The notes beneath the pieces were generated by a model. It worked only from the letters and a program-made list of their open reading frames with translations. It did not search any database and had not been told where the DNA came from. A stretch of DNA of 64,000 nt. It comes from Harmothoe impar (lineage: Eukaryota; Annelida; Polychaeta; Phyllodocida; Polynoidae). The position numbers and the translations under genes were made by a program. Location: positions 83,080,622 through 83,144,621 of the forward strand of contig OX381709.1 in assembly GCA_947462335.1 (NCBI GenBank), written 5' to 3'. How positions within the stretch are numbered: position 1 is the first letter of the stretch; every line of letters begins with the position of its first letter. Positions 1,096 to 64,000 of this stretch are shown piece by piece.

Positions 1096-1375
1096 CTAAA
1101 CATAAGTGTCAATCAAGTCCCTATGGGTTTTCCTGTTCCAGGAGGTAAATTTGGGGCTCTCTCTCACAGATCTTTCTTCCACAGTAAGGGCATTCCATGC
1201 CCCTGCCAGTCTATACCTCAGAGAACGAACATATGCAGGATTTTTTGCTCTTTTCTGGAGGAGTAACCTCTGGTCCCTTCTTCTAGTGGCCACATTAATT
1301 ATATGTAGTTCTTCAGGAATTAATGATTTTGAAAAGGCTAGATCCAATATGTGCATACGTCTTCTATCCTTAAGT
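1096..1375 (-). pseudogene. ORF2 C-terminal tail, separated from its endonuclease part by an internal deletion
   Basis: The frame reads KLKDRRR-MHILDLAFSKSL, then a basic stretch (ATRRRDQRLLLQKRAKN) and an ending around AGAWNALTVEERSVRES. Equivalent tails in retrotransposons B and C carry RRAHLMNYMYSRSRNQ or RRIYHAQIYGFKKSRK followed by WNDL. This is therefore the extreme C-terminus of the reverse-transcriptase protein. The frame stops at a TAG at 1096-1098. Upstream it joins the PISILPL motif directly through an in-frame stop near 1376, so roughly 390 residues of RT, including the catalytic motifs, are missing. Confidence 0.75.
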
Positions 1376-2985: not shown

Positions 2986-4264
2986 TAAAAGTGTGTCTAA
3001 AATTCCTAAGAGAGAGCATACCCCCCTGTTTCAAGAACATGTTTGACCAGAAACCTTCATATAAGTACATATTTGTTTCCAAGATGTAAAGTATAGCGCT
3101 TTTGCAAGGGCATGTGCAATAAAATGCTACCCGAGCAGCTATTTCCAGTAAGTATATCATTAGAGTAGAGTGAAGTGAGCCTAGTGACTCTGTGTATATG
3201 ATACCAGTAATAAGCTTGTAGCGGTATTGGCATGTTGTTAAATTATTAGTAGAGAGTAGGGTTAGTAAATAATGTGTTGCACCCTCCAGGTGACCATGGC
3301 AGCGACCCTTCGGGATTACACAGTAGAGACCAGTATTGAAGCAGTTCGTTGGTGATTCCTTATGGTCTGTTAGTGTGTTAAGGTACATGTAAATATACAT
3401 ATTTATAACTTAACTGACACAAGATAATATTCAGGTTAATTTATAAACTTGGACTGCATTAGTACGTGGACATGAATCACAGATAAGCAAGTGGTCTACT
3501 AGGTATCGTGCAATTAGGGTCCTATGAAATATGATACTTTTAGCTTCAAAATTGGCTGCTAACGACTAACGCGCCCTGCACTGTAGGTTGTTACCAGCTG
3601 GAGGGGGGGGGGGGGAAGAAAAAGGGGGGGGGGATTGAGTGGGGGGTAAGGACATGGACAATTCGGTTTGGGCTAGTTGATAGGCGCGCCCTGCACTGCC
3701 AGTCTCGTATCCCGGGTAGGACAATTTTGAAGTAAATTTTAATTAGTGTAGGGGGGGGGGCAAGACCTAGTAGAGCCAAGACAAATGCCTCGAATTATCT
3801 GGGGAATAATTTCTTACTAAGGAGTTAATTAGAGGGTGGGCGGTGCATACTACCTATCCTCTAGAGTTGGTAATGAGCAGTTTGTAGTATGGACGACCAT
3901 CTCATCACTGGTCATCATCATCATCATCATCATCGTCATCATCATCATCACCATCATCATCATCACCACCATCATAGTCTTCAGGCCGACATCTGAGGCA
4001 CACGTAATATCTCCTCCTAACCAGCGCAGGTGCGCCGAGCATTTTCACAAATTTAGCACTCAGGAGGCTTTTCACACGTGTGGCCTGAACCCATGGTCGG
4101 GGGGGCATATTACTACTGCTCATCCTGGAGAGCTGGCTGAGGCGGAGGATAGAGTAACGTAATCCAGGTTTCATGCCAAGAGATCACTAACGCCGGGTGT
4201 GCCATCACAGTTTTAGCACTCAGGAAGCTTTTCACCCGTGTGGCCTGAACACGCATTAGTTGGT
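2986..4264 (-). other. Spacer of retrotransposon A between the SGNH ORF and ORF2
   Basis: No recognisable coding domain. It contains poly-G runs (3601-3632 and 3750-3759), a CAT microsatellite (3914-3975), a short direct duplication (GCACTCAGGAGGCTTTTCAC near 4059 and a close copy near 4216), and two copies of the GCGCGCCCTGCACTG motif (near 3570 and 3686) that recurs in the spacer at 5160-5695. Open frames here encode only low-complexity or shadow peptides. Confidence 0.5.
3914..3975. repeat. CAT/ATC trinucleotide microsatellite
   Basis: About 20 near-perfect CAT/CAC triplets with occasional CGT. It reads as poly-Asp on the minus strand and poly-Ile on the plus strand, but lies outside any recognised domain, so it is taken as non-coding. 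Confidence 0.9.
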
Positions 4265-4936
4265 CTATATTACTCCAGCATTATGCAGTATGTCATAATT
4301 CCTTTCAAGGCATTTAACGTATAGCAGGGCCCATTCAGTAGTAGTGGTAGTAGTCGGATGTAGTCCATCTGGTGAGAACTTCTTATATTTGTGGGTATAT
4401 TTACCCTTGTTCCCACAGTGAATAGAGGTAGCTAGTTGAGGGCCATAGTATAGCGTTTCTCTGTTCATTTCCATGAGGACCTGATTGATGAGGAGGACTC
4501 CCTCGTTCATGACCTTTTGTTGTAATGGATATTGCTCAGTTGTCTCATGGTTATACATCTGCATCTTCATACCCAAGAGGGGTGCATAGGCCATCCTTTG
4601 CCCTGCGTCTTGTACAGTTTTTTTCAACTGGGTGTATAGAGACGTAAGGTGCTCAACAAGACAGCCGACCTCCGGCCATTTAGGTGTCACCTTCCAGTGT
4701 GGGTCCAGCCTATGAAGTGTCGTGAGGTTATTAGCACCTATCATTACAATCATTAGGTGATAATTATTATGCTGGAGGTGTTGTTTTAGTTCAACAGTCA
4801 GTGACTCTATTGTGGCTCCAGGGATGGTGAGCTCGTGCAAGTCCATATAGTCAGTCCCTTTCTCCTCTAGTGCTAGATTGATAGCCTCCAGCAAGCCTCT
4901 CCCCCTACTATCCGCGGCCAGTAACACCCTGAACAT
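4265..4936 (-). CDS. SGNH/GDSL-type hydrolase ORF of retrotransposon A
   Basis: The start is the ATG at 4936-4934 (A at -3). The frame is open further upstream to 5191 but that part is low-complexity Pro/Thr sequence made by the G-rich repeats, so it is left out. The 223-residue product has SGNH blocks in order: LLAADSRGRG with the likely nucleophile Ser10; IPGATIES with oxyanion Gly40; VMIGANNLT with Asn70; and SPDGLHP with the Asp190/His193 pair near the end. SGNH hydrolases are esterases or lipases. Esterase domains are known in ORF1 proteins of CR1 and L2 elements (for example zebrafish L2), where they assist retrotransposition. Here the domain is a separate ORF between ORF1 and ORF2. All catalytic positions look intact. 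Substrate is unknown. Confidence 0.8.
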   Translation of the reverse strand: MFRVLLAADSRGRGLLEAINLALEEKGTDYMDLHELTIPGATIESLTVELKQHLQHNNYHLMIVMIGANNLTTLHRLDPHWKVTPKWPEVGCLVEHLTSLYTQLKKTVQDAGQRMAYAPLLGMKMQMYNHETTEQYPLQQKVMNEGVLLINQVLMEMNRETLYYGPQLATSIHCGNKGKYTHKYKKFSPDGLHPTTTTTTEWALLYVKCLERNYDILHNAGVI

Positions 4937-4944
4937 TTTAAATA

Positions 4945-5770
4945 AATAAAGTGACCTGTGAGTAAAATTTGTAATAGGATATCGTGGAATATACCTGAGT
5001 AGACGTGTACGTGTGTACGTGTGTTTGAGTGTGTCTGCTAGTGGTGGTGTCGGTTGTCGGTCTGTTAGTGTATGTGGGTAGGTGACGGTGTGTGTGGGTA
5101 GGCCTCGGGGGGGGGGGGGGGGGTGCCAGGGTGTATCAGTGTGTAAGATGGTGTAGGTAAGGCGCGCCCTGCACTGCCCGTCCATTCCCATAATTATGTT
5201 GTGTGCTAGTGTGGGGGAGGGGTGGTTGAAGTCTCTATTCGGTGTGGGATATGTACTGGTGTGTAGAGTAAAGGGTGGGTAATTATGTTGTGTACTAGCG
5301 TATAGACCAGTGTGTATGTGAGTAGGGGCGGAGGGTTAGTATATCTCTAGCAGTGGTGTAAGTACATGGTGACGGTGTGTGTGGGTAGGCCTCGGGGGGG
5401 GGGGGGTGCCAGGGTGTATCAGTGTGTGAGATGGTGTAGGTAAGGCGCGCCCTGCACTGCCCGTCCATTCCCATAATTATGTTGTGTGCTAGTGTGGGGG
5501 GAGGGGTGGTTGAAGTCTCTATTCGGTGTGGGATATGTACTGGTGTGTAGAGTAAAGGGTGGGTAATTATGTTGTGTACTAGCGTATAGGCCAGTGTGTA
5601 TGTGAGTAGGGGCGGAGGGTTACTATATCTCGAGCAGTGGTGTAAGTACATGGTGGTGTTAGTTTGATTGATTGATTAGGCGCGCCCTGCACTGCCTGTC
5701 CGGGCGGGTGTTGTATAATATACAGTGTGTCACTAGCCAGCGGGCAGGGGGGGGGGGGGGGGGAATCTGA
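4945..5770 (-). repeat. G-rich tandem duplication between ORF1 and the SGNH ORF
   Basis: Two long units of about 285 bp lie near 5060-5345 and 5346-5655. Each contains a poly-G tract (5108-5123; 5395-5407), GTGCCAGGGTGTATCAGTGT, the motif GGCGCGCCCTGCACTGCC, and GGTTGAAGTCTCTATTCGGT. A further motif copy is at 5679, followed by another poly-G tract at 5746-5763. Translated frames are Pro/His/Thr-rich and repetitive, so the block is taken as an untranslated spacer. Confidence 0.8.
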
Positions 5771-5799: not shown

Positions 5800-7107
5800 C
5801 TATGTTTTCTTTTCAGCAGCCAGCCTTGCTTCACATCTTCTGAAAAGGGCCCTAATTTCCTCTAGTGATTTGCCACACCTATTTTGTCCCTTTGGTGTGC
5901 AATTCTTTTGTCCATCTTGGAGGATGAATCCTGTCGCCCAAACTAGGTCTCTAGTTCCTTCGTATAATGGCAGCTGTTTTGTGGCCATTAATTGAGTGAG
6001 GAGGGTGGGATTCTGCCTAAACTTTAGAAGCTGTAGTTTCTTGATCAGTTTGAAACGGCCGGTTTCGAACCATTCCTTGTTCCTTGGCAGTTTCCGGAGA
6101 AGTTTCTTGACCTCATATGGGTCTGGTTCACGCAAAGCCTGAGCGGCTAACCCAGGCGCACCACATTCAAGGGCTGACTGGTGGACATAGCCCTGCTCCA
6201 CCGAGGCATAGTGATAGATACCCCACTTGATATGGCTGGGGTACATATTGGATAAGAAGCTGTGCTTCGATTGGAACACTATTCCATTATCATAGGTGAG
6301 GGTTTTTGCTGATGCAAGGGATAATTCCTCAGGAAGCAACTCCAGATTGTCCCACACGTACACTGTTCCCTCTATGATAACTGAACGGCCCTTGAGTTCT
6401 ACTCTTTTTCCTAGGCTCTTTGCGTGTTGGGCCACGATTCTTAGGTCACGTACCCTATCCTGTTCAGTTTTGGTAAGGTCGTCGCCAATAGAGACTTTCC
6501 AGTTAGGCATGGTTCTCAATTTCTTAACATTGGAGTATACTGCTCCTTTTGACCTCCCCTCCTTAAACTGAACCATTATGGGTCTAGTTTTGTTCGCCTC
6601 GTACTTGCCCAGTCTGAAGATACCATGGCAGTCTGCAGAGGATAATCCTGTTCCTAAGTCACTCAGTAGATTGTCTATCACTTGGTGAGGGTTTGGATGG
6701 TCTTGTTCGGATAGGCCCCTGAAGATCATATTGTTCTTCCTGGTGGAGCTATCTAGTTTTTCTCTTTGGGTGGTCAGGTCATCAATTATAGATCCCTGAA
6801 TAGCTACCTTTATCTCAAGACTTCCTACTTGTTTCTCAAGTTCTGCAATTCTTTGCCTTTGGGAGGTTACTGTGTCCGTCAGTTTCTTAATTTGCTTGTT
6901 ATTAGATGTGATCTGTGTAGCATTTTGGGCAATGGTGTTATTGAGCATGAGCAGCTTGCGCATGAACTTTTTTTCGAGTTCTTCTAAGGAGGAGACAGGG
7001 GGGTCACCCTCAGGACCAGTGGTACTGCTGTCATTACCATCATCATCATTATCATCGCCTTCTTCCTTACTATCATCATCTCCATTCAGCGTCTGATCCA
7101 CGTCAAC

Positions 7108-7147
<40 letters not shown>

Positions 7148-7704
7148 GCATCAGCATCATCTTTCCCATCATCATCATCATCCCTTTCATCAATACCGAG
7201 GTCCCCTTCAGCCACCTTGATGCCATTCACGGCCTCATCCCTGCTGTTATCATTTTCGTCAGATCGGGCACTCGCGAGGTTTCTCTCCGGTGTGGAGGGT
7301 GGCAAGTCTAGTCCTACCTGGGGCTGGACAGCGGTTAGCTCCAGAATTAGTGCACTTACGTCGTCAAGCGGTTTGGCAGGTGAAGTTATGAGATCCTCAT
7401 TAAACAGAGAAATATCTGAGCCAGCTAGGGGGGTACCTTCCAGATTTAATTTCTTCTTACCATGTTTTTTCTTTGGTTGTTTAGTCTTGGCGGATTTAGG
7501 GGTGGATGCGTCTTGGGTGGATACCGACTGAGTGGATGCCGGTCCAGGTGCATTGTTGTCGGTTCTAGCTCCCTTTGGAGCCTGCTGAGGCAGTGGGTGG
7601 GATTGCCCTGGGGGTATATCACCGGTGGTACCTCCATTGTCGCCCTCCTTGTCAGTGCGACTTCTGGTGTTCCTTTTATTTTCCTTTTTCGGAGCTTCAG
7701 CCAT
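5800..7704 (-). CDS. ORF1 protein of retrotransposon A with C-terminal NADAR domain
   Basis: The start is the ATG at 7704-7702 (A at -3, G at +4); the frame stays open 12 codons further to a GTG. The 634-residue product has, in order: a Lys-rich disordered N-terminus with KKKHGKKK; an acidic segment (about 175-224) with a long Asp run; a heptad-like coiled coil (about 240-320); an RRM-like region starting NNMIFRGLSEQDHPN with CHGIFRLGKYE; a second RNA-binding-type segment around VELKGRSVIIEGTVY; and a NADAR domain (about 472-622). NADAR landmarks: GIVFQSKHSFLSNMYP, SVEQGY (Glu503), PDPYEVKKLLRKL, W before FETGRFKLI, LLKFRQNPTLLTQLMATK, DLVWATGF (Trp589) and GQNRCGKSLEEIR. NADAR proteins (YbiA/DUF1768) act on ADP-ribose-linked substrates, including ADP-ribosylated guanine. 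The NxLG box is altered to NRCG, so activity is uncertain. Confidence 0.85.
7100..7185. repeat. CAT microsatellite inside ORF1 (poly-Asp codons)
   Basis: A nearly uninterrupted (CAT)n tract on the plus strand reads as GAT/Asp codons in ORF1 and encodes the acidic segment. Additional short CAT runs flank it at about 7036-7080 and 7168-7182. Length variation here would change the protein without shifting frame. Confidence 0.9.
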
Positions 7705-11705: not shown

Positions 11706-11707
11706 TA

Positions 11708-18564: not shown

Positions 18565-21393
18565 TCAAACCAGGAGGCTCCTAAGATGACGCTTGGTCTC
18601 TGTTTTAAAAATCTCATAGGTGTCAGCATTTCTTCTCAAGACTGTTAGATCATTCCAACCTACAGCACCAGAAAACTCCACACTCCTCCCATACGCAAGA
18701 CCATTGGCATGTAGTATTTTACACATTGGGGCTTGAGCCATTCGAGTCACACGCTGCCTGTGGTCAACATACACCTGATTTCTAGACCTAGAATACATAT
18801 AGTTCATGAGGTGAGCCTCCCTTCTATCAGATAGCATGTTACATTTAGTATCACTATGTACAGTTTCAGTGGGGGTCAGGTGAGGGTATTTCATACAGAT
18901 TTTTAGACATTTATTCTGGGCATACTGGGGTGGTTGCAAATATTTTTCTGCTGCCGATTGAAATAAAATATCAGCGTAATCCATGTAAGGCAATATTGAT
19001 GTTACATAGAAACGTAAGGCAATTTTCTTGTCAAGATAATCTCTAAGTTGACACAATTTGTAGGTTTTATAAGCTACTGTCTTTGTGACATACGCTAGAT
19101 GTAAATTAAATTTTAATAGTGGATCTAGTATTACGCCTAGATATTTATAGCTGGGAACAACTTGCAACAAATGGTCGTTCATTCTAATATTAGCCTGTAG
19201 AGTATTTAATTTGCCTTTACTTGCTGCAAAGATCATAATCTTGGTTTTGGCAGCATTAACAGAGAGCTTATTTTGTATGCACCATGTTGAATAACACTCC
19301 AAATCCTCTTGTAAATTATTACGAGCTGCATCAAAATCATGATGCGCTGTGTAGACTACCGTATCATCGGCATAAAGCTTAATTTTACAGTTTTTAATAC
19401 ATTTTACCACATCATTAACGTACAATAAAAATAATAAGGGGCCCAGTATAGAACCCTGGGGGACACCGCAGACCACCTCAGCCCTTCCTGAGGAGAGGCT
19501 ATTAACGTTTACTACCTGAAATCTGTTTCCTAAATAATTTTCAAACCAGTGATAATTGTCAGAGCGAATTCCATAATGATTTAATTTACATAGAAGTACT
19601 GAGTGGTCTACGGTGTCAAAGGCCTTTCTTAAATCTATAAATGCTGCTATTGTATTATTGGCTATATTTAATTCCCTACGTATATCGTCGGTAAACTCTG
19701 CTAGCGTGTTGGCTGTGCTATGTCCAGCCCGAAAACCACCCTGAAATTTGGTCAAAATACCTTCACGCGTAAGAACCCATATACTCTACTATGTACAATC
19801 TTTTCCAATAATTTACATGGCAGCGGCAGAAGGGAAATAGGCCTATAGTTGTTAACCTGTTTCAAATTTCCAGACTTAGGTATAGGCGTAACCTTGGAAA
19901 CCTTCCAGGGGGGGGAACAGTATTTTGTTCAAATGATTTGTTGAAAATTTTGACAAGTTTATCTGGGGTGTGTTTAAAGGCAGCTTTTAAATATTTTGTA
20001 GAAATATTGTCAATTGCAGAGGATTTGTTTACATTTATATCGTGGATTAATTTCTGGACTTCTAATATGTTAGTTTCAAAAGGTTCTATGAAATTTACAG
20101 CTGGATCATCATATTGCTTCCAAGGTATATTCATATCCTTCGCCAGGACAGGACCTATTTGTGTAAAATATTGATTTATAAAATTTGGGGTATCATTTGG
20201 TTGTACCGGTATATTAGTTTCCTGGTCAATCAGAGTTACATTTTTCCCCTTGTTTGGCTGGCCAGGCAAAATATTATTTATCACACGCCAAAATTTCTTG
20301 TGATCCTTTTCATAATTTACTAGCTGCTCTTTAAAGAAGTTTTTCCTCATCCTGTCCACCCTTTTATTACAAGCGTTTTGAGCGTCATTAGCAATTTTCC
20401 AATCCCTATCAAGATTTGAATCCCTAGCCGTTTGTAGGCATGTATTTTTATCCCTTATTTGTTCGTATACTTCTTGGCTCATCCATGGATCCCTGTATTC
20501 AGGAATTTCAAAAGATTTTAAACGGCAAAATTTGTCTAAAATATACCGGATGGCTTTCTCATATTCCTCCCAACATAAAGTAACATCAAGGGCATTGTCA
20601 AAAGAAGACCAATTATATTTGTCAAGCTCCTGAAGGAAGACCTCAAAAGGAAGTTTAATGTACGATCTGCCTTGGATTGTAATTTTCGCTTTTTTAATAT
20701 TAAATTTTTTTCTTACTAAGTATACCGGGTAGTGGTCAGAAATGTGGATATTGAATACTCCAGTTCTAATAAAGTTTCGTTTTTCCTTGTGCTTTCCTGA
20801 ATTTCTTGTACTAGGCCTAAAAGTTTCATCTTATTTAATAATTGATTTACCAAGGCATCATCGTCTTTGACATTAAAGTTCATGTCACCCATTAAAATCA
20901 CCTCATATTCGTAGAGATCTTCAATATCTGATAACATTTCATTCAACCTGTTAATGAATTTCTGTTTGTCACCTTCTGGAGGCCTATACATATTGACCAA
21001 GATGATTTTTTTCATATGTGGCTTATTTATTAACATGTTTTGAACCTCTATGTCCTCATCAGAAGCACATAACCCTGGGAACGCATTATAATCATGTTCA
21101 ATATAGTGCTTAATATAAATACAGACACCTCCTCCTGTTTTAATTTTATCATTAATTACAACTTGACGGTCTAGCCTATACCGTGTGTAACCTGAGAATT
21201 GCCAGTCTCCTTCGTCGTCTTCACATTTGAACCAGGTTTCCGAGAAGGACATAATTTCAAGGTTAGCACTAGTTAATTCTGTACAAATGGAGGCATAATT
21301 ACACTTTAAACTTCTTGCATTGAGGTGGAGCATATGGAGTCCCCTGGCACTGCTGACCCGTGCTATGGTCTGAGCAGTATTTCTACCGTACAA
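18565..21393 (-). pseudogene. ORF2 of retrotransposon B, copy 1: endonuclease and reverse transcriptase, several frameshifts
   Basis: Endonuclease motifs: MLHLNARSLKC, FSETWFKCED, NMYRPPEGDK and LMGDMNFNV. A 34-nt deletion near 20778 (relative to copy 2) then shifts frame and disrupts the stretch before the ISDHYP box. The middle domain continues at 20482-19862 (WMSQEVYEQIRDK). A run of eight G at about 19908-19915 shifts frame in the VPPPWK region, and another shift lies near 19766. The RT core is open at 19755-18565: QGGFRAGHST, AFIDLRKAFD, CGVPQGSILGPL, KLYADDTVVY and YKYLGVILDP, with catalytic Asp boxes present. The first ATG is inside the LHMLHLNA motif; upstream the frame opens at TTG. 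This copy cannot make a full ORF2 protein. Confidence 0.9.
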
Positions 21394-21978
21394 TATAAAT
21401 CAAAACCCAGCACCTGGTTAAGTATAAGACCATATACTCTTACAATCAAATATGTCAAATTTCCTTTACATCCAAGGAATGTGTGTGTATTAAATACAGA
21501 AACCATGATGAGGGTATAGGCCTTTATGCCACCCCCAGCTGGTTCTAACATTATTTTTCTTGGTTAGATTTCGACAGTCTGGTTCGGGGCATCACAACAT
21601 GGAGAAAGACCTTTGTAATCTTAATACAAATAGAGCAGAGTATTCAACTCGAAAATAAATACATATCATGGAGTCTTATCGACCTTTGTGACTGGAGTTA
21701 ATAGTTTACGACTAGACAAATTTCCATACACAATTTGTGGTACCAGTATTTCTAACATAAACCATAATTAAAGTTAATATTTCACTTGGGATCACAACAG
21801 TGAATTATGGTGTAAATACAAAGTGTATATGTATGTAGATGTATACAAATATGTACTATATTCAAACAATTATTACTTAGTGACTGTCCTTTTAATTAAG
21901 GGATTGGATGTAATGAGTTCATAGTCTGATATGCCGTGTTGGTTTGGTTGACTTCTTTGGCCTGATGGGACGAGTTCC
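21394..21978 (-). other. Inter-ORF spacer of retrotransposon B, copy 1
   Basis: No coding signal. It holds the empty target site (ATAT at 21432-21435) for the 2.2-kb DNA transposon found in copy 2. Otherwise it is nearly identical to 62057-62599. Confidence 0.7.
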
Positions 21979-23504
21979 TCAGTTTACCAGTAGTTGTTCT
22001 GGTGTAGGAGGGGGTTGGTCAGCTGGTTGGTCTTCGTCGCCGCCTGCTGCAGGGATGAGTAGACGTTGGCGCTTTACCTCTTCTTTGGTGGGTAGTGGAT
22101 CTTCGCCTGTGTGCTGGTACCTGATCTTCATAAGAATTTCACCAAGTCTGTTTCCTCCTATAACATTGTCGATGGTGATATCATTTTTCTGTCCAAGATG
22201 CAGTCCACAGCCGTAGGTCTTGTCTAGAGTTGCCTCGTATAGGTATTTACCCTTTGTATCAGTCAGAGCCTTAAGCCTATCTGGATCCTGGTACTTGATA
22301 GACTGTAGCTTCTCCATGGCATACCATTCATTTGTGCGGGTTACCTTTTTGGCCTGAAACATAGCGTCCATAGGTGTCTTCACTGTTGTGACCCGTCTGA
22401 AAATGCCTTGGTTGCCACTGATCGTACACATTTTAGCACAAAAAGCCCTTTCAGTGCTGTCAAAGGTCTGACCCTCATACTTTATTTCACAAGGGTAGAG
22501 GTTAGAAAATATAGCATGAGCACTCTGAAAGGCAATTCCGTCTGGCGTATCCACTACTTTGGCGTTGGTCATCGAGAGGCCAAACGGGATCTGGTCAATC
22601 TCGTTGTACTTGTACTGGTGCCCCGCTACCACTATGGATGTTCCCCTTACCTGGCAGTCTACATTTTTTGATCTTGCCAGCGCTTGAAGTGACCTGAGTT
22701 CTCTTTGGATATTTTTTTCCTCAATGGAGATGTCATCAGATAGGTGTACCCCCAGCCATTGATCTTTGTGCTTTAGTGCCTGTATATTACCAAATATTTG
22801 GGATTTATAGTGGGCAGATGCAAAAGTTATGGCCACCTGTCGGGGTCTTGGTTTGTAGTTTTTGTTCCTCCGCTGTCCATCGTCTCTGGGGGGGGGGTTG
22901 GCTTCTTACCTCGTCGGTACACAGACTCAGCCACGCTGTTGTTATGGGGCAGGCCTAGGTCATTAAATAGTTGGTCAACAATGTCTCTTAAGCTGGCAGG
23001 GGTGTCCTCAGGTAGACCTTCCATGATTAGCACACGCTTTTTCCTGTCGACCTCGAATTTACCAAATTTATCATGGAAGGAGTCACAATCTGCCTGTACC
23101 TTGTCTGCATTTTTCCCTAGTATTGAGATGTTGTCAGAATTTGTAGAGAGGCCCGTTTCCATACCGTCCATGGTGGTACGCAGACCAGCAATCTTGTTTG
23201 TCACCTCGTCCAGCGCCTTTGTTGTTGTCACGGCCAGTTTGCTGCCAGCGATCATTCTCTCTTCCAGCGAGTCAATCAGTCCTAGAGTTCTTATTGAGAC
23301 CTGCTCTTGTTGGGAAAGGCGTATTTCGAGTTCATTTACCTTGTTTATGACCTCTTTAGGAGTGGATTTACTCGTTAATGCCGGTAAATTCGATTGTTTT
23401 TGCGTCTTTCTCGTCTCGCTGGAAGTGGCTTCCGCCATCTTGGTTTCGTCGTCTTGTGCGAGTGCTGTAGATTCCGTCAGTCTTTTTGAATTTCTCGTTA
23501 ACAT
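21979..23504 (-). pseudogene. ORF1 of retrotransposon B, copy 1: coiled coil, RRM-like, NADAR; one frameshift
   Basis: Starts at the ATG at 23504 (MLTRNSKRLTEST). The N-terminal part to 22827 has a coiled coil (about residues 55-125) and the RRM-like segment RVLIMEGLPEDTPASL. At 22888-22897 a run of ten G (eleven in copy 2) shifts the frame at KKPTPPP. The second part, to 21979, holds the rest of the RNA-binding region (VRGTSIVVAGHQYKY) and a complete NADAR domain: DGIAFQSAHAIFSNLYP, DSTERAF with the conserved Glu, AKKVTRTNEW, KYLYEATLDKTYGCG and GGNRLGEILMKIR. It also lacks 15 nt (five codons, near 22317) present in copy 2. The frameshift may be mutation or a homopolymer assembly error. Confidence 0.85.
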
Positions 23505-23698
23505 GGATATTTTTCACTCAGGTTCGTTAGGTATTCGTGTCCACCACACATTCCCGCAGCTTCAACTGCTATGTGTGTGTAAAATACTAACTAATACTGG
23601 TGGAAATTCTCCAATATGAGCCCTTTGCCTAACCGGACGTCCTCTAGCCTAGTGTCAACATCCCGCGTATGAATAAAAGTCACGTTTTACCCCCTAGT

Positions 23699-36350: not shown

Positions 36351-37931
36351 ATGTCGGACGCAAAGCGTGTAACACGGAGGAAGAAGCCATTGACGGCGGC
36401 CTCACTTCTACCCGAGGTGATAGAAACCATTCTATACATGGATAAAAGGTTAGAACAAGTGGAGGCTGACGGACTGAAAACCGCCAATATCCTCAAAGGC
36501 ATCGAGACCAGGATGACTGCGTCTGAAGATCGAATAGGAACGCTTGAAGCTGATACGAACGAGACGTCCCGGCTGCTGTCAGAGCTAACCGCCACCGTCA
36601 ACAACCTTACAACTACGGTAGGCACCCTGAACGACTCTGTCAAAGCCAACGCTGACCACATAGGCGTCACAACCCGGATCGTCGGACAGCATGTATTATC
36701 GTTCGGCAAAATGGAGGAAGCCGAGAAAGCAAAAACAATTCTGATTGAAGGCGTGTCTGAACCGGTTGGCAGGGAGGACCTGAGGAGCCTGATAGATGAC
36801 CTATTTCTAGAACTAGGACTCGATTACGGTAATGAGAGGGTAGAGGCCATATTTAGACTTGGCCGAGCGTCAAAGGACAGACCCGACTTCAAACGTCCTA
36901 TAGTAGTGAAACTTGCCAGCAGGACCATAAAGGGTGATATCTTTCGTAATGTCAGATTCCTCCAGGGCAAGAAGCTATGGAAGGGTATCAGTATCATGGA
37001 CCAGCTGGATGAGGGAGAGAGGAGAGAGTACAACGACCTGAGGGCGATTTTCTTTCTTGCAAAGAAGACCGGTGTGAAAAGGTTAAAACTCAAACAACGA
37101 TCCATCATTATTGATGGGTATGCCTACAGACATGCTGACTTGGGAAAACTACCCTATGGGCTATCACTCAGGAAAGCAACGACAGTCAAAACACTTGATG
37201 GTATAGGATTCAAGTCCATACACAACCCGTTGTCAAATCTCTTCCCCTGCAAAGTCGATGGTGACCTGTATACATACAAAAGTGTCGAACAGGCGCTCCA
37301 GTATAAAAAGGCAAAAGCAGCTGGTGATGTTGACGCTGCCACCAGGATCCTCCAAACCACCGACCCATACGAGATGATGAAGATAGGCTCCAAGCTGAAC
37401 CCCCCACCAGAATGGAAGAAAGACGAGAGCAAGCTGGTGTACAACCTCATTCTATCAAAGTTTGAAGATCCCACTCTGAGACGTCTGCTACTGGCGACAA
37501 AGCATAAAAACCTGTACGAACTAACATACCACAAGACATATGGCTGTGGTCACCACCCAGGAAATGCTCACAACCTATCAAAAGAAAAGGTGGTTGGGGG
37601 CAACTTACTGGGTCTGCTCCTGGAAAAGGCCAGAGGTAAAATCAGAGACGATGAATACAAGGAACAGAATCCCAATGGGGAAGAAGAAGGAACTGGAGCA
37701 GAAGAGGCAGGAAATGAAGCAGAAAAGAAAGACGAGGACAATTCTAGTACAACCTCTGATGACCCTTGGGCACCACCTCCAACCGTCGACCAGCCTGCCC
37801 TGATTCCAGAAGTACCACAGAACGCCGACCTCGAGCAACAAGACCAACCCGCTGCTGAAACTCCGCCAGCACCAACACCACCGACCCCAGATGAACCCCC
37901 TGTGGAACTGCCACAAACTACACATGTGTAA
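36351..37931 (+). CDS. ORF1 protein of retrotransposon C with NADAR domain
   Basis: A 526-residue product from an ATG preceded by AGCAAAA (A at -3). Order: a basic N-terminus (KRVTRRKKP); a coiled coil (about 25-125, with regular hydrophobic spacing from LEQVEADGL through FGKMEEAEK); an RRM-like region starting KTILIEGVSEPVG with VEAIFRLGRASKDRPD and RPIVVKLASRT; a basic segment LKLKQRSIIIDGYAY; then NADAR (about 284-428). NADAR landmarks: GIGFKSIHNPLSNLFP, YKSVEQALQYKKAK (Glu313), TDPYEMMKIGSKL, PEWKKDESK, SKFEDPTLRRLLLATK, YELTYHKTYGCG (397-400) and GGNLLGLLLEKAR (416-428). The tail is Glu- and Pro-rich. By analogy with L1-type ORF1p the first half should bind RNA and multimerise. NADAR would act on, or bind, ADP-ribose-linked targets; this is inferred from the family. 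Tyr replaces the usual Trp of the WG.G box. Confidence 0.9.
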   Translation: MSDAKRVTRRKKPLTAASLLPEVIETILYMDKRLEQVEADGLKTANILKGIETRMTASEDRIGTLEADTNETSRLLSELTATVNNLTTTVGTLNDSVKANADHIGVTTRIVGQHVLSFGKMEEAEKAKTILIEGVSEPVGREDLRSLIDDLFLELGLDYGNERVEAIFRLGRASKDRPDFKRPIVVKLASRTIKGDIFRNVRFLQGKKLWKGISIMDQLDEGERREYNDLRAIFFLAKKTGVKRLKLKQRSIIIDGYAYRHADLGKLPYGLSLRKATTVKTLDGIGFKSIHNPLSNLFPCKVDGDLYTYKSVEQALQYKKAKAAGDVDAATRILQTTDPYEMMKIGSKLNPPPEWKKDESKLVYNLILSKFEDPTLRRLLLATKHKNLYELTYHKTYGCGHHPGNAHNLSKEKVVGGNLLGLLLEKARGKIRDDEYKEQNPNGEEEGTGAEEAGNEAEKKDEDNSSTTSDDPWAPPPTVDQPALIPEVPQNADLEQQDQPAAETPPAPTPPTPDEPPVELPQTTHV

Positions 37932-38580: not shown

Positions 38581-41439
38581 ATGACAAATGAATGTACGAT
38601 ACTGCCGGGTAAGGGTTTAAGCCTTCTACACTTAAACGCTAGAAGTATTAGAAACAAGTTCCCCCAAATCAAAATTGAATTGTGGAATAAGGGGATTGAC
38701 ATTTTATGCTTTACAGAAACCTGGTTAACTTCTATTAACTTAAATGCAGATTTTGATTTACCAGGGTATAACTTATTTCGAGTTGATAGATTAAGAGAAA
38801 TGAGAGCTGGAGGAGTATGTGTCTATGTAAAAGAAGATTTCACCTGTGACGATCAAATATTCTCCGCCCTAAACAAGAGTAATGAACAGATTGAAATCCA
38901 ATGGCTGGTTATATCCAAGGGTAAAGCAAAAAAGCTTTTAATTGGAAATGTGTATAGGCCCCCGACTAGTAGTAATAAGGGAGCCTTTACTAGGGAGTTG
39001 AATGAAATTATTGGTCAAATACCAAATCTTGATAATTATGATGTTATTATTACCGGTGATATGAACATTAATGTTTTAATTGATGATAACGACAAAGAAA
39101 CCTTGTACGGTACTATGGGTGACTACAGCCTACGCCAGATGATAACTGATCCCACCAGGGTGGCAGAAACACAGACCTGCATAGATTTAATGTTTACAAA
39201 TATTGTTCATGTTAATACCTATGGTGTAGCGAATGTGAATATCTCAGACCATCTTCCCATTTATATTAGATTAAAAAGGAAAAAAACTATTTATAATGAG
39301 AGGAAATTTACCGGTAGATCGTATAAAAACTATGATTCGAAAAAATTCACAGAAAGGTTTGCAGATAAAGATTGGACATTTTTTGAAAATTCAGACGACA
39401 TTGAATATTGTTGGAAATTCTATATGGAGGTATTGTCTGAGATATTGGATATTGATTGCCCAGTAAAGGTTTTCAATATCAAAAACAAAGACGAGCCCTG
39501 GCTCACGCCTGAGCTAAAAACTCGCATAGCTGAGAAAAACATGGCCCTAAAAAAGGCTAGGCGTACAAACACTGTCATAGATTGGTTCATGGCTAATAAT
39601 TTGAAAAATCAAATATCTTCTGATTGTAAAGATGCTCACCGGTTGTATATAGTAAATCAAGTTGAAATAAATGTAAATGACTCGAAAGAATTCTGGGCAG
39701 CCATGAGAAATTTGATCCCCGGAAAAAATGTCAAATCGAAACAAATAAATTTAAAAGACGATACAGGCAACCCCATACAAATTGATGAGACGGCAAATTA
39801 TATAAATAATTTCTTTTGTGAAATTGGTCCTAAGTTAGCCCTGCAACATGACAAAGACTGGGTTTTTGATGGCCAAGTGTGTGAGACTCAAATGCCTGAC
39901 ATTGTCATTTCTGAGGAAGAAGTCGTTACTGTGATAAAAGAATTAAATGTGAATAAATCCTCATCTATTGACTTTGTATCGACTAAGGTATTCAAGGACT
40001 CAGTACTGGCCTCCCCCCAAAAGTTCACGAAAATATTAAATTTGTCTTTGCATTTTTCCAAAATACCGAGCTCTTGGAAACAAGCTAGAGTTACGCCTTT
40101 ACCCAAATCAGGGGATCTTTCAAATGTTTCCAATTTCAGGCCTATAAGCCAATTGCCCATACCAGGGAAAGTCCTTGAACGCATTGTGCATACAAATATA
40201 TCTACACATTTAGAAAATATGAATATACTTGTAAATGAACAAGGCGGGTATAGAAAGTGTAGATCTACTGTCGATACTATAGGTGCTTTGACGAATGATA
40301 TTTTACGCTCTAGAAATAAAGGCCACATAACATTAGCTGCCTTTATTGACATTAAAAAGGCCTTCGATTCGGTAAATTATATTATATTGTTAAATAAATT
40401 AGAAAAATACGGTATAAGAGGCTCAAATCTACGCTGGATTAATGATTACTTTACCGGTAGAACGCAGGTCACTGTATGCAACGGTACGACCTCTGGCATT
40501 GTAAACATGACGTGTGGCACCCCGCAGGGTAGTATTTTGGGTCCTTTATTCTTTTTATTATATGTAAATGATTTAAAAGTGACTCATAATAATGTAAATA
40601 CTCTTATGTATGCAGACGATACAGTTTTATACACTTCTGGAAAAACACTAAATACGCTAGCTGAAAATTTACAATCATCCCTACAAAACTTTGTAAACTG
40701 GTCTTCAAAAAACAAATTGACTATAAATGAATCCAAAACCAAACTCATGCTTTTCTCATCCAAAATTAAATCAAAAAGTCTGCTAGTTAGAAATCTCAAT
40801 ATTAAAATAAAAAACGAAACTTTGAAATTTGTACCCACCTATAAATACCTTGGTGTAATCCTTGATTATGAGCTCACATACAATCACCATGTAAAGGAAC
40901 TCAAAAGAAACCTTGCTTTTAAATCATACTTACTTGCCATACTGAAGGGTTATGTACCAACCTGTATTATGCTGATTATTTACAAAACTTATGTATTACC
41001 TTTATTCGACTATGCCGACATTTTATATCATAGCGCTAGTAATACCGGTACGCAACTTTTACAAACTGTTCAAAACAGATGTCTTAAATATTGTTATAAG
41101 GCACCTATTTTAACTTCTACAAATGTCATACATAAGAGAGCTCTTTTGCCAAAACTAATTGATAGAAGGATTTACCATGCACAAATATATGGTTTCAAAA
41201 AATCCAGAAAGATTGATGCACTTAATATTCGGCCTAGAAATACTCGTGAGGCTCAAGCTCCGCTTTTAAAATATTCAAATATTATATTGACATCATATGA
41301 GAAATCTCTCGAGGTTTTCATAGCTCAAACCTGGAATGATCTAGACCAGGAGTTTAGAAACATTTTGGAAATTTCCTCTTTCAAATTCAAAATGAAAGAA
41401 CTTCTCGCTGAGAAAATTGCAAACTATTTTGATGTGTAG
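38581..41439 (+). CDS. ORF2 protein of retrotransposon C: APE endonuclease and reverse transcriptase
   Basis: A 952-residue uninterrupted product starting MTNECTILPG at an ATG. The endonuclease (about 12-235) has LLHLNARSIRN (Asn19), CFTETWLTS (Glu46), NVYRPPTSS, ITGDMNINV (Asp160, Asn162) and NISDHLPIYI (Asp223, His224). A linker with KEFWAAMRNLIPG and NVNKSSSIDFVS leads to the RT (about 500-780): RVTPLPKSGDLSNVSNFRPI, NEQGGYRKCRST, AAFIDIKKAFDS (Asp590), CGTPQGSILGPLFFLLYVND, LMYADDTVLY (Asp679, Asp680) and TYKYLGVILDY. The C-terminal tail has LPKLIDRRIYHAQIYGF and TWNDLDQEF. All catalytic residues are present, no RNase H domain was seen, and the length suits a CR1/L2-clade ORF2. The protein would nick chromosomal DNA and copy element RNA at the nick. 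Confidence 0.95.
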   Translation: MTNECTILPGKGLSLLHLNARSIRNKFPQIKIELWNKGIDILCFTETWLTSINLNADFDLPGYNLFRVDRLREMRAGGVCVYVKEDFTCDDQIFSALNKSNEQIEIQWLVISKGKAKKLLIGNVYRPPTSSNKGAFTRELNEIIGQIPNLDNYDVIITGDMNINVLIDDNDKETLYGTMGDYSLRQMITDPTRVAETQTCIDLMFTNIVHVNTYGVANVNISDHLPIYIRLKRKKTIYNERKFTGRSYKNYDSKKFTERFADKDWTFFENSDDIEYCWKFYMEVLSEILDIDCPVKVFNIKNKDEPWLTPELKTRIAEKNMALKKARRTNTVIDWFMANNLKNQISSDCKDAHRLYIVNQVEINVNDSKEFWAAMRNLIPGKNVKSKQINLKDDTGNPIQIDETANYINNFFCEIGPKLALQHDKDWVFDGQVCETQMPDIVISEEEVVTVIKELNVNKSSSIDFVSTKVFKDSVLASPQKFTKILNLSLHFSKIPSSWKQARVTPLPKSGDLSNVSNFRPISQLPIPGKVLERIVHTNISTHLENMNILVNEQGGYRKCRSTVDTIGALTNDILRSRNKGHITLAAFIDIKKAFDSVNYIILLNKLEKYGIRGSNLRWINDYFTGRTQVTVCNGTTSGIVNMTCGTPQGSILGPLFFLLYVNDLKVTHNNVNTLMYADDTVLYTSGKTLNTLAENLQSSLQNFVNWSSKNKLTINESKTKLMLFSSKIKSKSLLVRNLNIKIKNETLKFVPTYKYLGVILDYELTYNHHVKELKRNLAFKSYLLAILKGYVPTCIMLIIYKTYVLPLFDYADILYHSASNTGTQLLQTVQNRCLKYCYKAPILTSTNVIHKRALLPKLIDRRIYHAQIYGFKKSRKIDALNIRPRNTREAQAPLLKYSNIILTSYEKSLEVFIAQTWNDLDQEFRNILEISSFKFKMKELLAEKIANYFDV

Positions 41440-41922
41440 GTGACGATAAACCCAAATGTTCCCGGTAGCTCTTGTACTAATTGTCTGTGATAAATGATCT
41501 ATGAGATAAAATCTCTCGCGAACAAACTGTGATAAATTGAGCTGCAAATGCTGTATGAATACTCAAGCTGTGATAAATACTTTTCAAACATATCATTACT
41601 GTAAAAATGTTTAACGAGAATATTGTATGTCCTGTTCTGTCTGGTGCAGTCCATCTTGCTCTTTAAAGATCAAGTGTATTAAATTGATTTCGTGATAAAT
41701 GTATAAGGTTGGCACCAAAAATCAGCTATGCTGAGTGCCATATCCTAGTCTTTATTGGCAGTTTATCAAATTGTTTAAAATATCCATCTCGCATATTAGT
41801 ATTCGTCTTAAAATATAATTCAGAAATGAAAACTGTGATAAAATCGACGATGGACAACGACGTTAAAGTGTACATTGATGTGGTCAATAAATGATTAAAA
41901 CACTTCCAAAAAAAAAAAAAAA
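41440..41922 (+). other. 3' untranslated region of retrotransposon C with repeated GTGATAAA and poly(A)
   Basis: GTGATAAA occurs five times (near 41487, 41530, 41570, 41691 and 41835), with related GAGATAAA near 41503 and CAATAAATGA near 41885. A run of 15 A closes the element. The repeats may be the RT recognition region; that is inference. Confidence 0.65.
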
Positions 41923-48535: not shown

Positions 48536-48554
48536 CAGGCTCTCTGGTACTATT

Positions 48555-50657: not shown

Positions 50658-50726
50658 CCAATCCAATTAAGGGGTTCGCACAGTCAGCAGTGTCCTTGGT
50701 CACAAGTACGGCAAAAAAATGCAGCT

Positions 50727-56937: not shown

Positions 56938-59802
56938 TCAAACCAGGAGGCTCCTAAGATGACGCTTGGTCTCTGTTTTAAAAATCTCATAGGTTTCAGC
57001 ATTTCTTCTCAAGACTGTTAGATCATTCCAACCTACAGCACCAGAAAACTCCACACTCCTCCCATACGCAAGACCATTGGCATGTAGTATTTTACACATT
57101 GGGGCTTGAGCCATTCGAGTCACACGCTGCCTGTGGTCAACATACACCTGATTTCTAGACCTAGAATACATATAGTTCATGAGGTGAGCCTCCCTTCTAT
57201 CAGATAGCATGTTACATTTAGTATCACTATGTACAGTTTCAGTGGGGGTCAGGTGAGGGTATTTCATACAGATTTTTAGACATTTATTCTGGGCATACTG
57301 GAGTGGTTGCAAATATTTTTCTGCTGCCGATTGAAATAAAATATCAGCGTAATCCATGTAAGGCAATATTGATGTTACATAGAAACGTAAGGCAATTTTC
57401 TTGTCAAGATAATCTCTAAGTTGACACAATTTGTAGGTTTTATAAGCTACTGTCTTTGTGACATACGCTAGATGTAAATTAAATTTTAATAGTGGATCTA
57501 GTATTACGCCTAGATATTTATAGCTGGGAACAACTTGCAACAAATGGTCGTTCATTCTAATATTAGCCTGTAGAGTATTTAATTTGCCTTTACTTGCTGC
57601 AAAGATCATAATCTTGGTTTTGGCAGCATTAACAGAGAGCTTATTTTGTATGCACCATGTTGAATAACACTCCAAATCCTCTTGTAAATTATTACGAGCT
57701 GCATCAAAATCATGATGCGCTGTGTAGACTACCGTATCATCGGCATAAAGCTTAATTTTACAGTTTTTAATACATTTTACCACATCATTAACGTACAATA
57801 AAAATAATAAGGGGCCCAGTATAGAACCCTGGGGGACACCGCAGACCACCTCAGCCCTTCCTGAGGAGAGGCTATTAACGTTTACTACCTGAAATCTGTT
57901 TCCTAAATAATTTTCAAACCAGTGATAATTGTCAGAGCGAATTCCATAATGATTTAATTTACATAGAAGTACTGAGTGGTCTACGGTGTCAAAGGCCTTT
58001 CTTAAATCTATAAATGCTGCTATTGTATTATTGGCTATATTTAATTCCCTACGTATATCGTCGGTAAACTCTGCTAGCGTGTTGGCTGTGCTATGTCCAG
58101 CCCGAAAACCACCCTGAAATTTGGTCAAAATACCTTCACGCGTAAGAACCCATATACTCTACTATGTACAATCTTTTCCAATAATTTACATGGCAGCGGC
58201 AGAAGGGAAATAGGCCTATAGTTGTTAACCTGTTTCAAATTTCCAGACTTAGGGATAGGCGTAACCTTGGAAACCTTCCAGGGGGGGGAACAGTATTTTG
58301 TTCAAATGATTTGTTGAAAATTTTGACAAGTTTTTCTGGGGTGTGTTTAAAGGCAGCTTTTAAATATTTTGTAGAAATATTGTCAATTGCAGAGGATTTG
58401 TTTACATTTATATCGTGGATTAATTTTTGGACTTCTAATATGTTAGTTTCAAAAGGTTCTATGAAATTTACAGCTGGATCATCATATTGCTTCCAAGGTA
58501 TATATTCATATCCTTCGCCAGGACAGGACCTATTTGTGTAAAATATTGATTTATAAAATTTGGGGTATCATTTGGTTGTACCGGTATATTAGTTTCCTGG
58601 TCAATCAGAGTTACATTTTTCCCCTTGTTTGGCTGGCCAGGCAAAATATTATTTATCACACGCCAAAATTTCTTGTGATCCTTTTCATAATTTACTAGCT
58701 GCTCTTTAAAGAAGTTTTTCCTCATCCTGTCCACCCTTTTATTACAAGCGTTTTTAGCGTCATTAGCAATTTTCCAATCCCTATCAAGATTTGAATCCCT
58801 AGCCGTTTGTAGGCATGTATTTTTATCCCTTATTTGTTCGTATACTTCTTGGCTCATCCATGGATCCCTGTATTCAGGAATTTCAAAAGATTTTAAAGGG
58901 CAAAATTTGTCTAAAATATACCGGATGGCTTTCTCATATTCCTCCCAACATAAAGTAACATCAAGGGCATTGTCAAAAGAAGACCAATTATATTTGTCAA
59001 GCTCCTGAAGGAAGACCTCAAAAGGAAGTTTAATGTACGATCTGCCTTGGATTGTAATTTTCGCTTTTTTAATATTAAATTTTTTTCTTACTAAGTATAC
59101 CGGGTAGTGGTCAGAAATGTGGATATTGAATACTCCAGTTCTAATAAAGTTTCTTCGCAGGTTTGAAAAAATTAAATCTAGAGTGGCGTTTTTCCTTGTG
59201 CTTTCCTGAATTTCTTGTACTAGGCCTAAAAGTTTCATCTTATTTAATAATTGATTTACCAAGGCATCATCGTCTTTGACATTAAAGTTCATGTCACCCA
59301 TTAAAATCACCTCATATTCGTAGAGATCTTCAATATCTGATAACATTTCATTCAACCTGTTAATGAATTTCTGTTTGTCACCTTCTGGAGGCCTATACAT
59401 ATTGACCAAGATGATTTTTTTCATATGTGGCTTATTTATTAACATGTTTTGAACCTCTATGTCCTCATCAGAAGCACATAACCCTGGGAACGCATTATAA
59501 TCATGTTCAATATAGTGCTTAATATAAATACAGACACCTCCTCCTGTTTTAATTTTATCATTAATTACAACTTGACGGTCTAGCCTATACCGTGTGTAAC
59601 CTGAGAATTGCCAGTCTCCTTCGTCGTCTTCACATTTGAACCAGGTTTCCGAGAAGGACATAATTTCAAGGTTAGCACTAGTTAATTCTGTACAAATGGA
59701 GGCATAATTACACTTTAAACTTCTTGCATTGAGGTGGAGCATACGGAGTCCCCTGGCACTGCTGACCTGTGCTATGGTCTGAGCAGTATTTCTACCGTAC
59801 AA
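56938..59802 (-). pseudogene. ORF2 of retrotransposon B, copy 2: endonuclease and reverse transcriptase, frameshifted
   Basis: The endonuclease is intact here: MLHLNARSLKC, FSETWF, MYRPPEGDK, LMGDMNFNV, RKNATLDLIFSNL and NIHISDHYPVYL, followed by the linker WMSQEVYEQIRDK and KFWRVINNILPGQ. A 2-nt insertion near 58500 (GTATATATTC against GTATATTC in copy 1) breaks the frame. The G8 run near 58281-58288 and the shift near 58139 are shared with copy 1. The RT core is open at 58128-56938 with AFIDLRKAFD, CGVPQGSILGPL and YADDTVVY. Compared with copy 1, only a few residues differ in the RT part (for example Pro to Leu in EKYLQPLQYAQ). Confidence 0.9.
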
Positions 59803-60034
59803 TATAAATCAAAACCCAGCACCTGGTTAAGTATAAGACCATATGAGTCAGAATTCCTAAAAATGCACTAATCTGGTACCAAATCTGAATCAAAAAAAAA
59901 TTTCACCAAACTCAATTTATCTTTATACAAGTTTATTTCATTGAAAGACTAGTATCTTAGGTCCCAGAATCCACTCATGGGAAAGCTTAACTCCCAGGGG
60001 GTCAGTTTTTATTCACTCTCAAACACAACCTGGA

Positions 60035-62056: not shown

Positions 62057-62599
62057 ACTCTTACAATCAAATATGTCAAATTTCCTTTGCATCCAAGGAA
62101 TGTGTGTGTATTAAATACAGAAACCATGATGAGGGTATAGGCCTTTATGCCACCCCCAGCTGGTTCTAACATTATTTTTCTTGGTTAGATTTCGACAGTC
62201 TGGTTCGGGGCATCACAACATGGAGAAAGACCTTTGTAATCTTAATACAAATAGAGCAGAGTATTCAACTCGAAAATAAATACATATCATGGAGTCTTAT
62301 CGACCTTTGTGACTGGAGTTAATAGTTTACGACTAGACAAATTTCCATACACAATTTGTGGTACCAGTATTTCTAACATAAACCATAATTAAAGTTAATA
62401 TTTCACTTGGGATCACAACAGTGAATTATGGTGTAAATACAAAGTGTATATGTATGTAGATGTATACAAATATGTACTATATTCAAACAATTATTACTTA
62501 GTGACTGTCCTTTTAATTAAGGGATTGGATGTAATGAGTTCATAGTCTGATATGCCGTGTTGGTTTGGTTGACTTCTTTGGCCTGATGGGACGAGTTCC
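62057..62599 (-). other. Inter-ORF spacer of retrotransposon B, copy 2
   Basis: Nearly identical to 21436-21978. No coding signal. Confidence 0.7.
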
Positions 62600-64000
62600 T
62601 CAGTTTACCGGTAGTTGTTCTGGTGTAGGAGGGGGTTGGTCAGCTGGTTGGTCTTCGTCGCCGCCTGCTGCAGGGATGAGTAGACGTTGGCGCTTTACCT
62701 CTTCTTTGGTGGGTAGTGGATCTTCGCCTGTGTGCTGGTACCTGATCTTCATAAGAATTTCACCAAGTCTGTTTCCTCCTTTAACATTGTCGATGGTGAT
62801 ATCATTTTTCTGTCCAAGATGCAGTCCACAGCCGTAGGTCTTGTCTAGAGTTGCCTCGTATAGGTATTTACCCTTTGTATCAGTCAGGGCCTTAAGCCTA
62901 TCTGGATCCTGGTACTTGATAGACTGTAGCTTCTCCATCACATCCTCCTCCATGGCATACCATTCATTTGTGCGGGTTACCTTTTTGGCCTGAAACATAG
63001 CGTCCATAGGTGTCTTCACTGTTGTGACCCGTCTGAAAATGCCTTGGTTGCCACTGATCGTACACATTTTAGCACAAAAAGCCCTTTCAGTGCTGTCAAA
63101 GGTCTGACCCTCATACTTTATTTCACAAGGGTAGAGGTTAGAAAATATAGCATGAGCACTCTGAAAGGCAATTCCGTCTGGCGTATCCACTACTTTGGCG
63201 TTGGTCATCGAGAGGCCAAACGGGATCTGGTCAATCTCGTTGTACTTGTACTGGTGCCCCGCTACCACTATGGATGTTCCCCTTACCTGGCAGTCTACAT
63301 TTTTTGATCTTGCCAGCGCTTGAAGTGACCTGAGTTCTCTTTGGATATTTTTATCCTCAATGGAGATGTCATCAGATAGGTGTACCCCCAGCCATTGATC
63401 TTTGTGCTTTAGTGCCTGTATATTACCAAATATTTGGGATTTATAGTGGGCAGATGCAAAAGTTATGGCCACCTGTCGGGGTCTTGGTTTGTAGTTTTTG
63501 TTCCTCCGCTGTCCATCGTCTCTGGGGGGGGGGGTTGGCTTCTTACCTCGTCGGTACACAGACTCAGCCACGCTGTTGTTATGGGGCAGGCCTAGGTCAT
63601 TAAATAGTTGGTCAACAATGTCTCTTAAGCTGGCAGGGGTGTCCTCAGGTAGACCTTCCATGATTAGCACACGCTTTTTCCTGTCGACCTCGAATTTACC
63701 AAATTTATCATGGAAGGAGTCACAATCTGCCTGTACCTTGTCTGCATTTTTCCCTAGTATTGAGATGTTGTCAGAATTTGTAGAGAGGCCCGTTTCCATA
63801 CCGTCCATGGTGGTACGCAGACCAGCAATCTTGTTTGTCACCTCGTCCAGCGCCTTTGTTGTTGTCACGGCCAGTTTGCTGCCAGCGGTCATTCTCTCTT
63901 CCAGCGAGTCAATCAGTCCTAGAGTTCTTATTGAGACCTGCTCTTGTTGGGAAAGGCGTATTTCGAGTTCATTTACCTTGTTTATGACCTCTTTAGGAGT
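62600..64000 (-). CDS. ORF1 protein of retrotransposon B, copy 2, with NADAR domain (5' end outside window)
   Basis: Open without interruption from the window edge to a stop at 62600; 466 residues are visible and copy 1 suggests about 55 more at the N-terminus. Order: coiled coil (LEIRLSQQEQVS onward); RRM-like region with RVLIMEGLPEDTPASL and SVYRRGKKPTPPP, where a run of eleven G keeps the frame that copy 1 loses; basic QRRNKNYKPRPRQ; VRGTSIVVAGHQYKY; NADAR (about visible residues 275-421) with DGIAFQSAHAIFSNLYP, TFDSTERAF (conserved Glu), AKKVTRTNEWYAMEEDVME, KYLYEATLDKTYGCG and GGNRLGEILMKIR. The tail is Pro/Gln-rich. The GGN-LG box and Glu are the best preserved of the three families. 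Ligand is inferred from the family only. Confidence 0.88.
   Translation of the reverse strand, partial: TPKEVINKVNELEIRLSQQEQVSIRTLGLIDSLEERMTAGSKLAVTTTKALDEVTNKIAGLRTTMDGMETGLSTNSDNISILGKNADKVQADCDSFHDKFGKFEVDRKKRVLIMEGLPEDTPASLRDIVDQLFNDLGLPHNNSVAESVYRRGKKPTPPPRDDGQRRNKNYKPRPRQVAITFASAHYKSQIFGNIQALKHKDQWLGVHLSDDISIEDKNIQRELRSLQALARSKNVDCQVRGTSIVVAGHQYKYNEIDQIPFGLSMTNAKVVDTPDGIAFQSAHAIFSNLYPCEIKYEGQTFDSTERAFCAKMCTISGNQGIFRRVTTVKTPMDAMFQAKKVTRTNEWYAMEEDVMEKLQSIKYQDPDRLKALTDTKGKYLYEATLDKTYGCGLHLGQKNDITIDNVKGGNRLGEILMKIRYQHTGEDPLPTKEEVKRQRLLIPAAGGDEDQPADQPPPTPEQLPVN

Follow-up and report, generated by a model that had tools for sequence, protein, structure and literature searches.

NADAR domains occur in stand-alone enzymes such as those of Phytophthora nicotianae (8bau) and Escherichia coli (YbiA, 2b3w), and are reported to reverse guanine ADP-ribosylation on single-stranded DNA and RNA (PMC11543638, PMC11833690). 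A guanine-specific DNA transferase, CARP-1 of the clam, is described for at least one animal (PMC11543638), and the physiological roles of eukaryotic NADARs are called unclear in PMC11125620. In retrotransposons, NADAR has been noticed in the ORF1 proteins of Tx1 LINEs from Crassostrea gigas and in the Pol protein of an Ectocarpus Gypsy element, with a proposed role in RNA processing (PMC12477816); this was the only paper on NADAR in retrotransposons among the matches listed in our literature search, which had most subscription journals and preprints outside its range. Host-restriction papers were among the matches listed for ADP-ribosylation or ADP-ribose in connection with LINE ORF1.

The ORF1 proteins of LINEs are diverse. 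Type II ORF1p, exemplified by human L1 ORF1p (Transposase_22), combines a coiled coil, an RNA recognition motif (RRM) and a C-terminal domain (CTD) (PMC4120745); the main text of that survey of Jockey, CR1 and L2 ORF1s does not contain the word NADAR. An enzymatic domain is found in the SGNH esterase ORF1p of ZfL2-1 and others, whose active site is conserved and whose distribution over clades is scattered, and the same paper states that no RepBase esterase ORF1p has an RRM (PMC3905857).

Here we describe a 64,000-nucleotide stretch of the genome of the polychaete Harmothoe impar (contig OX381709.1; hereafter the window) in which LINEs of three families, A, B and C, carry NADAR in ORF1. As in the Crassostrea Tx1 LINEs (PMC12477816), the domain lies in a LINE ORF1, and one further group of the genome (group I, L028 and L030) shares with them an L1/Tx1-type ORF2; the window families and groups D and G differ from them in having an ORF2 that appears CR1/Jockey-like. 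The Ectocarpus Gypsy element is likewise a retroelement with a YbiA-family NADAR, but it is an LTR element with NADAR at the N-terminus of Pol and no ORF1 protein (PMC12477816). The statement in the initial annotation that no retrotransposon function is described for this domain stands in so far as none has been demonstrated, although the fusion itself had already been noticed (PMC12477816).

Results

NADAR-bearing ORF1 proteins in the window

The initial annotation proposed from motifs that four ORF1 proteins of three families end in NADAR, and Pfam confirms this: all four match PF08719 at 43.1–74.8 bits against a cut-off of 35.1. The predicted fold is clear and of YbiA type (families C and B compared with 8bau and 2b3w). 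A chance motif match is thus ruled out by the Pfam match above cut-off together with the predicted fold. Ahead of NADAR, a coiled coil, RRM and CTD follow in this order, as seen in an L1 ORF1p profile match and in the models of C and B, and the constant position of NADAR behind the coiled coil and RRM is borne out by profile, alignment and models. On this basis the window ORF1s are predicted to be L1-type RNA-binding proteins that end in NADAR, similar to type II ORF1p in profile and fold; human L1 ORF1p is not known to have such a domain at its C-terminus. None of the four proteins matches PF02994 (Transposase_22), and a genome-wide PF02994 search returned 0 matches for the genome and for the controls alike, and is hence uninformative.

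The best preserved of the window elements belongs to family C and lies on the forward strand. Its intact ORF1 (36351..37931; 526 codons) comprises a coiled coil, RRM and CTD resembling L1 ORF1p (36720..37199, residues about 124–283, by profile match and predicted structure), the NADAR domain (37200..37658, residues 284–436) and a low-complexity tail. The active-site residues E43, K50 and E125 are all present (numbering of the Phytophthora NADAR, PMC11543638). The intact ORF2 (38581..41439; 952 codons) encodes an AP-type endonuclease (EN) and a reverse transcriptase (RT), matching Pfam PF03372/PF14529 and PF00078, which identifies the element as a LINE, and a 15-base A run at 41908..41922 is taken as its 3' tail. 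A search for a target-site duplication around this element found none.

Family A, on the reverse strand, has an intact ORF1 of 634 aa (5800..7704) with an acidic N-terminal part, a coiled coil, RRM/CTD (by alignment) and NADAR (5845..6285, residues about 474–620), in which serine replaces the active-site lysine. Its ORF2 remains (1096..3030) hold the EN and the start of the RT, then the C-terminal end; the RT core is missing in this copy. Since its NADAR stretch agrees with copies on two other contigs at 494/494 and 493/494 bases, family A was copied recently. Between ORF1 and ORF2 lies an SGNH/GDSL-like ORF (4265..5335, reverse strand) with a weak Pfam match below cut-off and no PDB match, and an element of group H (L090:3-1221) has two tandem SGNH-like ORFs, for which no Pfam match was found. 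Unlike the esterase ORF1ps of PMC3905857, these ORFs adjoin an RRM-NADAR ORF1, and the A and H elements are possible three- or four-ORF LINEs.

Family B is present twice, both copies on the reverse strand and inside one larger duplication. ORF1 of copy 2 (62600..64000) has 466 codons within the window and is open at its edge, the frame in the genome being 516 aa; its NADAR domain (62738..63157, ORF1 residues 282–421) has both a Pfam match and a predicted fold, and its ORF2 is in pieces (56938..59808; EN 58468-59808, RT 56938-58158). ORF1 of copy 1 (21979..23513) is divided by a frameshift into 22827-23513 and 21979-22905 and has a 15-base deletion in NADAR, which still matches Pfam (22117..22521); its ORF2 is broken (18565..21399; EN 20716-21399, middle part 19862-20830, RT 18565-19785).

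The duplication (8101-23363 and 45502-64000) is old, with flanks 73–86% identical; the block with the B element (16906-23363 vs 55273-64000) is 98.4–98.9% identical, as would be expected after gene conversion or recent replacement. ORF1 and ORF2 of copy 2 are separated by an insertion of ~2.2 kb (59844-62052) that copy 1 lacks and that includes an inverted copy of a ~150-bp dispersed repeat. This repeat has five copies, 80–90% identical, at 17807, 44359, 50169, 56174 and 61140 (the last reversed), four of which contain an array of the unit AACGTTATAT. A satellite array at 29753-32196 consists of about 90 copies of a 27-bp unit. Rfam and tRNA scans were both empty, and query protein P0003 had no relatives among the viral_contigs or genome_contigs.

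Copies across the genome

A PF08719 profile search of the 1.51-Gb genome gave 150 scored matches, drawn from 3,484 first-look candidates, a figure that is not a copy count. All 150 exceed the cut-off and none has an internal stop; the frame is at least 400 aa in 112 of the 149 for which its length was recorded. Searches with the ORF1 proteins returned 82 matches for C, 92 for B and 71 for A, many of full length and some with stops. Full-length matches in open frames rule out that NADAR is confined to dead copies; the domain is present in open, recently copied elements, and the objection that it might occur in dead copies alone fails. Among 55 element copies read with their flanks, an RRM-CTD match precedes NADAR in the same frame in 44, an ORF2 match lies downstream on the same strand in 45, and 39 have both.

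The four best PF08719 matches (L001–L004; G000 C19 and C21:30.06-30.08 Mb) have frames of 183–268 aa and look like host genes in which NADAR stands alone. All retain E43, K50 and E125, three of them lie within 27 kb, and L001, despite its stand-alone appearance, has an RT fragment within the same 3.4 kb. Three NADAR ORFs (L024, L027 and L029) do not match the RRM-CTD profile used; one of these, L027, is a long frame (1153 aa) with a CR1/Jockey-like ORF2 downstream.

Conservation of the active site

Both catalytic glutamates are invariant wherever they can be read. E43 is present in 58/58 readable NADARs and E125 in 59/59 (55 from elements, four apparently stand-alone), and each is found in 25/25 further copies of families A and B, bringing the totals to 83/83 readable rows for E43 and 84/84 for E125. 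The main rows were chosen for matching PF08719 and family C best, and therefore this sample leans towards canonical sequences. When rows of at least 120 aa were clustered at 70% identity (21 clusters), E43 and E125 were among nine wholly invariant columns of 149.

The phosphate contacts are more variable, and part of the LINE domains differ from the stand-alone 8bau and 2b3w enzymes, with which they have the fold, E43 and E125 in common, at K50 and R93. Of the 54 element rows readable at position 50 (E43+7), 52 have lysine, L028 has arginine and L030 cysteine, the last two being read from unaligned sequence because of an inserted residue. An E. coli C7 enzyme with arginine at this position retains hydrolysis in vitro (PMC11543638). 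Lysine is found there in 14 of the 21 clusters, L028 and L030 being among the remaining seven and misaligned at this position. It is kept in rows of C, D, E, F, G and H, and is absent from its place in all 25 extra copies of A and B: all 12 of the A copies have S, T or A at position 50, and all 13 of the B copies have M or L there, with lysine one residue earlier in ten of these 13. The window copies agree, A having serine and B methionine with a lysine one residue earlier. R93, a phosphate contact, is kept in A and lost in B and C; as it is E, S or A in C rows, the grip on ADP-ribose is partly different even where K50 is kept. With E43 and E125 fixed and K50 and R93 variable, the catalytic, distal-ribose end of the pocket is constant and the diphosphate end varies between lineages. 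Pocket conservation is therefore mixed: both glutamates hold throughout, but the lysine that grips the phosphate is replaced in A and shifted in B, so that ADP-ribose may not be the substrate of these two families.

This pattern bears on whether the domain cuts or merely binds. L1-type ORF1 proteins are binding proteins, and NADAR could read nucleic acid or protein that is ribosylated or ADP-ribosylated, or add an RNA-binding surface, and so anchor the ribonucleoprotein (RNP) at nicks marked by PARPs or on its own RNA. The retention of both ribose-contacting glutamates in A and B would suit such a role, as would the loss of K50 from the recently copied family A and its shift in B, given that the equivalent lysine is reported to be essential for hydrolysis in the E. 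coli C7 NADAR (PMC11543638). However, the lysine persists in the great majority of element rows, and binding alone would not necessarily require an E125 that never varies and whose C7 counterpart is needed for hydrolysis. We consider a purely binding role rather unlikely.

Selection on the domain

The dN/dS analysis suggested in the initial annotation places the domain under strong constraint, with medians of about 0.1 or lower in A, B, C and D. Only pairs with 0.02<dS<1 were kept, which dropped most C, A and B pairs, and the pairs are mutually non-independent. Median dN/dS of NADAR was 0.108 in family D (9 of 13 loci, 33/36 pairs usable) and 0.095 in family C (23 of 28 loci, 15/253 pairs), loci with short frames being excluded (in E, 2 of 5 were used); it was 0.025 in family A (8/78 pairs) and 0.103 in family B (1/78), L070 being left out of the A/B set for having no open frame in the retrieved piece. 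Every usable pair in A, C and D lay below 1. Nearest disjoint pairs gave pN/pS of 0.18 in C, 0.18 in D, 0.226 in A, 0.245 in B and 0.05 in E (one pair). Median dN/dS of the RRM-CTD was 0.070 in D and 0.062 in C; NADAR is conserved to about the level of RRM and CTD, and the C-terminal tail is little conserved. Because dN/dS and pN/pS are low across families, these sequence comparisons indicate that NADAR is in use, also where K50 is gone; constraint tells us of use and not of its kind.

LINE copies decay neutrally once inserted, and the two B copies in the window differ by four non-synonymous changes and one synonymous change, as might be seen if NADAR were a mere passenger, retained by chance because the elements were copied not long ago. 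This explanation is contradicted by dN/dS values of about 0.1 and by glutamates that are invariant across lineages 50–70% different in protein, and we give it almost no credence.

ORF2 types and the number of gains

The ORF2s of C, B, D and G align mutually at 30–43% identity, and those of C, D and G share the RT motif PQGSILGP. We take the window families and groups D and G to have a CR1/Jockey-like ORF2, an assignment that for the window elements relies on RT motifs and on the Pfam search having matched no RNase H. Against human L1 ORF2p, family C ORF2 scores 1.2e-18 (EN 3.7 bits, RT 65 bits) and its RT motif reads GTPQGSILGPLFF as opposed to GTRQGCPLSPLLF in L1; judged by scores and motif, the window elements appear to fall outside the Tx1/L1 clade with its L1-type ORF2. 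The group I ORF2 (L028/L086) matches human L1 ORF2p at 8e-27 in the EN and 3.4e-72 in the RT, with the RT motif GTRQGCCLSP, and is 45% identical to that of L030/L087; the RRM-CTD profile matches L030 and not L028. Thus, a NADAR-bearing ORF1 accompanies both ORF2 types.

A separate, unrelated gain in each of the three window families is rejected, as ORF1 and ORF2 each align among A, B and C. In a NADAR tree of 50 rows, with near-copies left out, group I groups with the stand-alone genes (93/81, not starred), and topology tests reject neither a single clade of all 44 element rows (p-AU 0.33) nor that clade minus group I (0.42). The history of the domain is either one gain followed by swapping of ORF1 or several gains.

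NADAR is joined to an RNA-binding scaffold repeatedly, in lineages whose ORF2s differ, and this argues for a macromolecular substrate, against the view that NADAR removes small signals derived from ADP-ribose or NAD, or metabolites carrying ribose, that are made in host immunity and that the fusion merely places it in the RNP. Small ADP-ribose derivatives have been proposed for many viral NADARs, although one section of the same paper favours macromolecular targets for those of eukaryotic RNA viruses (PMC9503650). The altered phosphate contacts would be compatible with a small substrate, and the nearest NCBIfam model to the window NADARs is a riboflavin-intermediate N-glycosidase (TIGR02464), but all four proteins score 50.1–67.8 bits, below the equivalog cut-off of 73.7. 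Overall, we find a small-molecule role unlikely.

Discussion

The proposal made in the initial annotation, that the RNP handles ADP-ribose by means of NADAR, is supported in part: the fold and constant place of the domain agree with it, and the conservation of the pocket is mixed. As the sequence is conserved as in a working domain, the elements likely use NADAR against tags added by the host. Our preferred reading is that the NADAR of LINE ORF1 is a guanine ADP-ribosyl hydrolase that protects the nucleic acid of the element, and for this whole chain we estimate a probability of roughly 45%. RRM and CTD would bring NADAR into contact with nucleic acid of the element itself, and an ORF1p multimer coating its own RNA would place many copies of the putative enzyme on that RNA and on the cDNA as well as the open target strand. 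There, an active NADAR would strip host-added ADP-ribose from guanine of the RNA, the cDNA or the nicked target strand, and the element would benefit by evading a host modification that stops reverse transcription or labels the RNP. Families A and B have lost or shifted the lysine, and their pocket would probably be retuned to another ribosylated base and not dead.

Nicks are sites both of LINE integration and of PARP action, and NADAR might instead act on proteins there, taking ADP-ribose off PARP1/2 or off proteins of the RNP and thereby facilitating target-primed reverse transcription. Characterised NADARs have guanine, not phosphate ends, as their target (PMC11833690), and we regard a role on proteins as very unlikely.

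Returning to the hydrolase reading, we tentatively extend it to an arms race, a broader proposition that we hold with more doubt: LINEs with two distant types of ORF2 may have gained a guanine de-ADP-ribosylase as a counter-defence against a putative host system that modifies retroelement RNA or cDNA with ADP-ribose, the pocket of A and B being retuned to a different ribosylated base in the process. A profile search of the genome for DarT (PF14487), a search that detected 1 of 14 controls, found no match and so gave no host guanine-specific ADP-ribosyltransferase, which speaks against the hydrolase reading.

This genome contains natural variants that have the key lysine and others that lack it, and the question of function is therefore directly testable. 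If the domain is active, these LINE RNPs would bring their own nucleic-acid repair enzyme, nucleic-acid ADP-ribosylation would be implicated as a eukaryotic defence against retroelements, and some eukaryotic NADARs would have a natural use.
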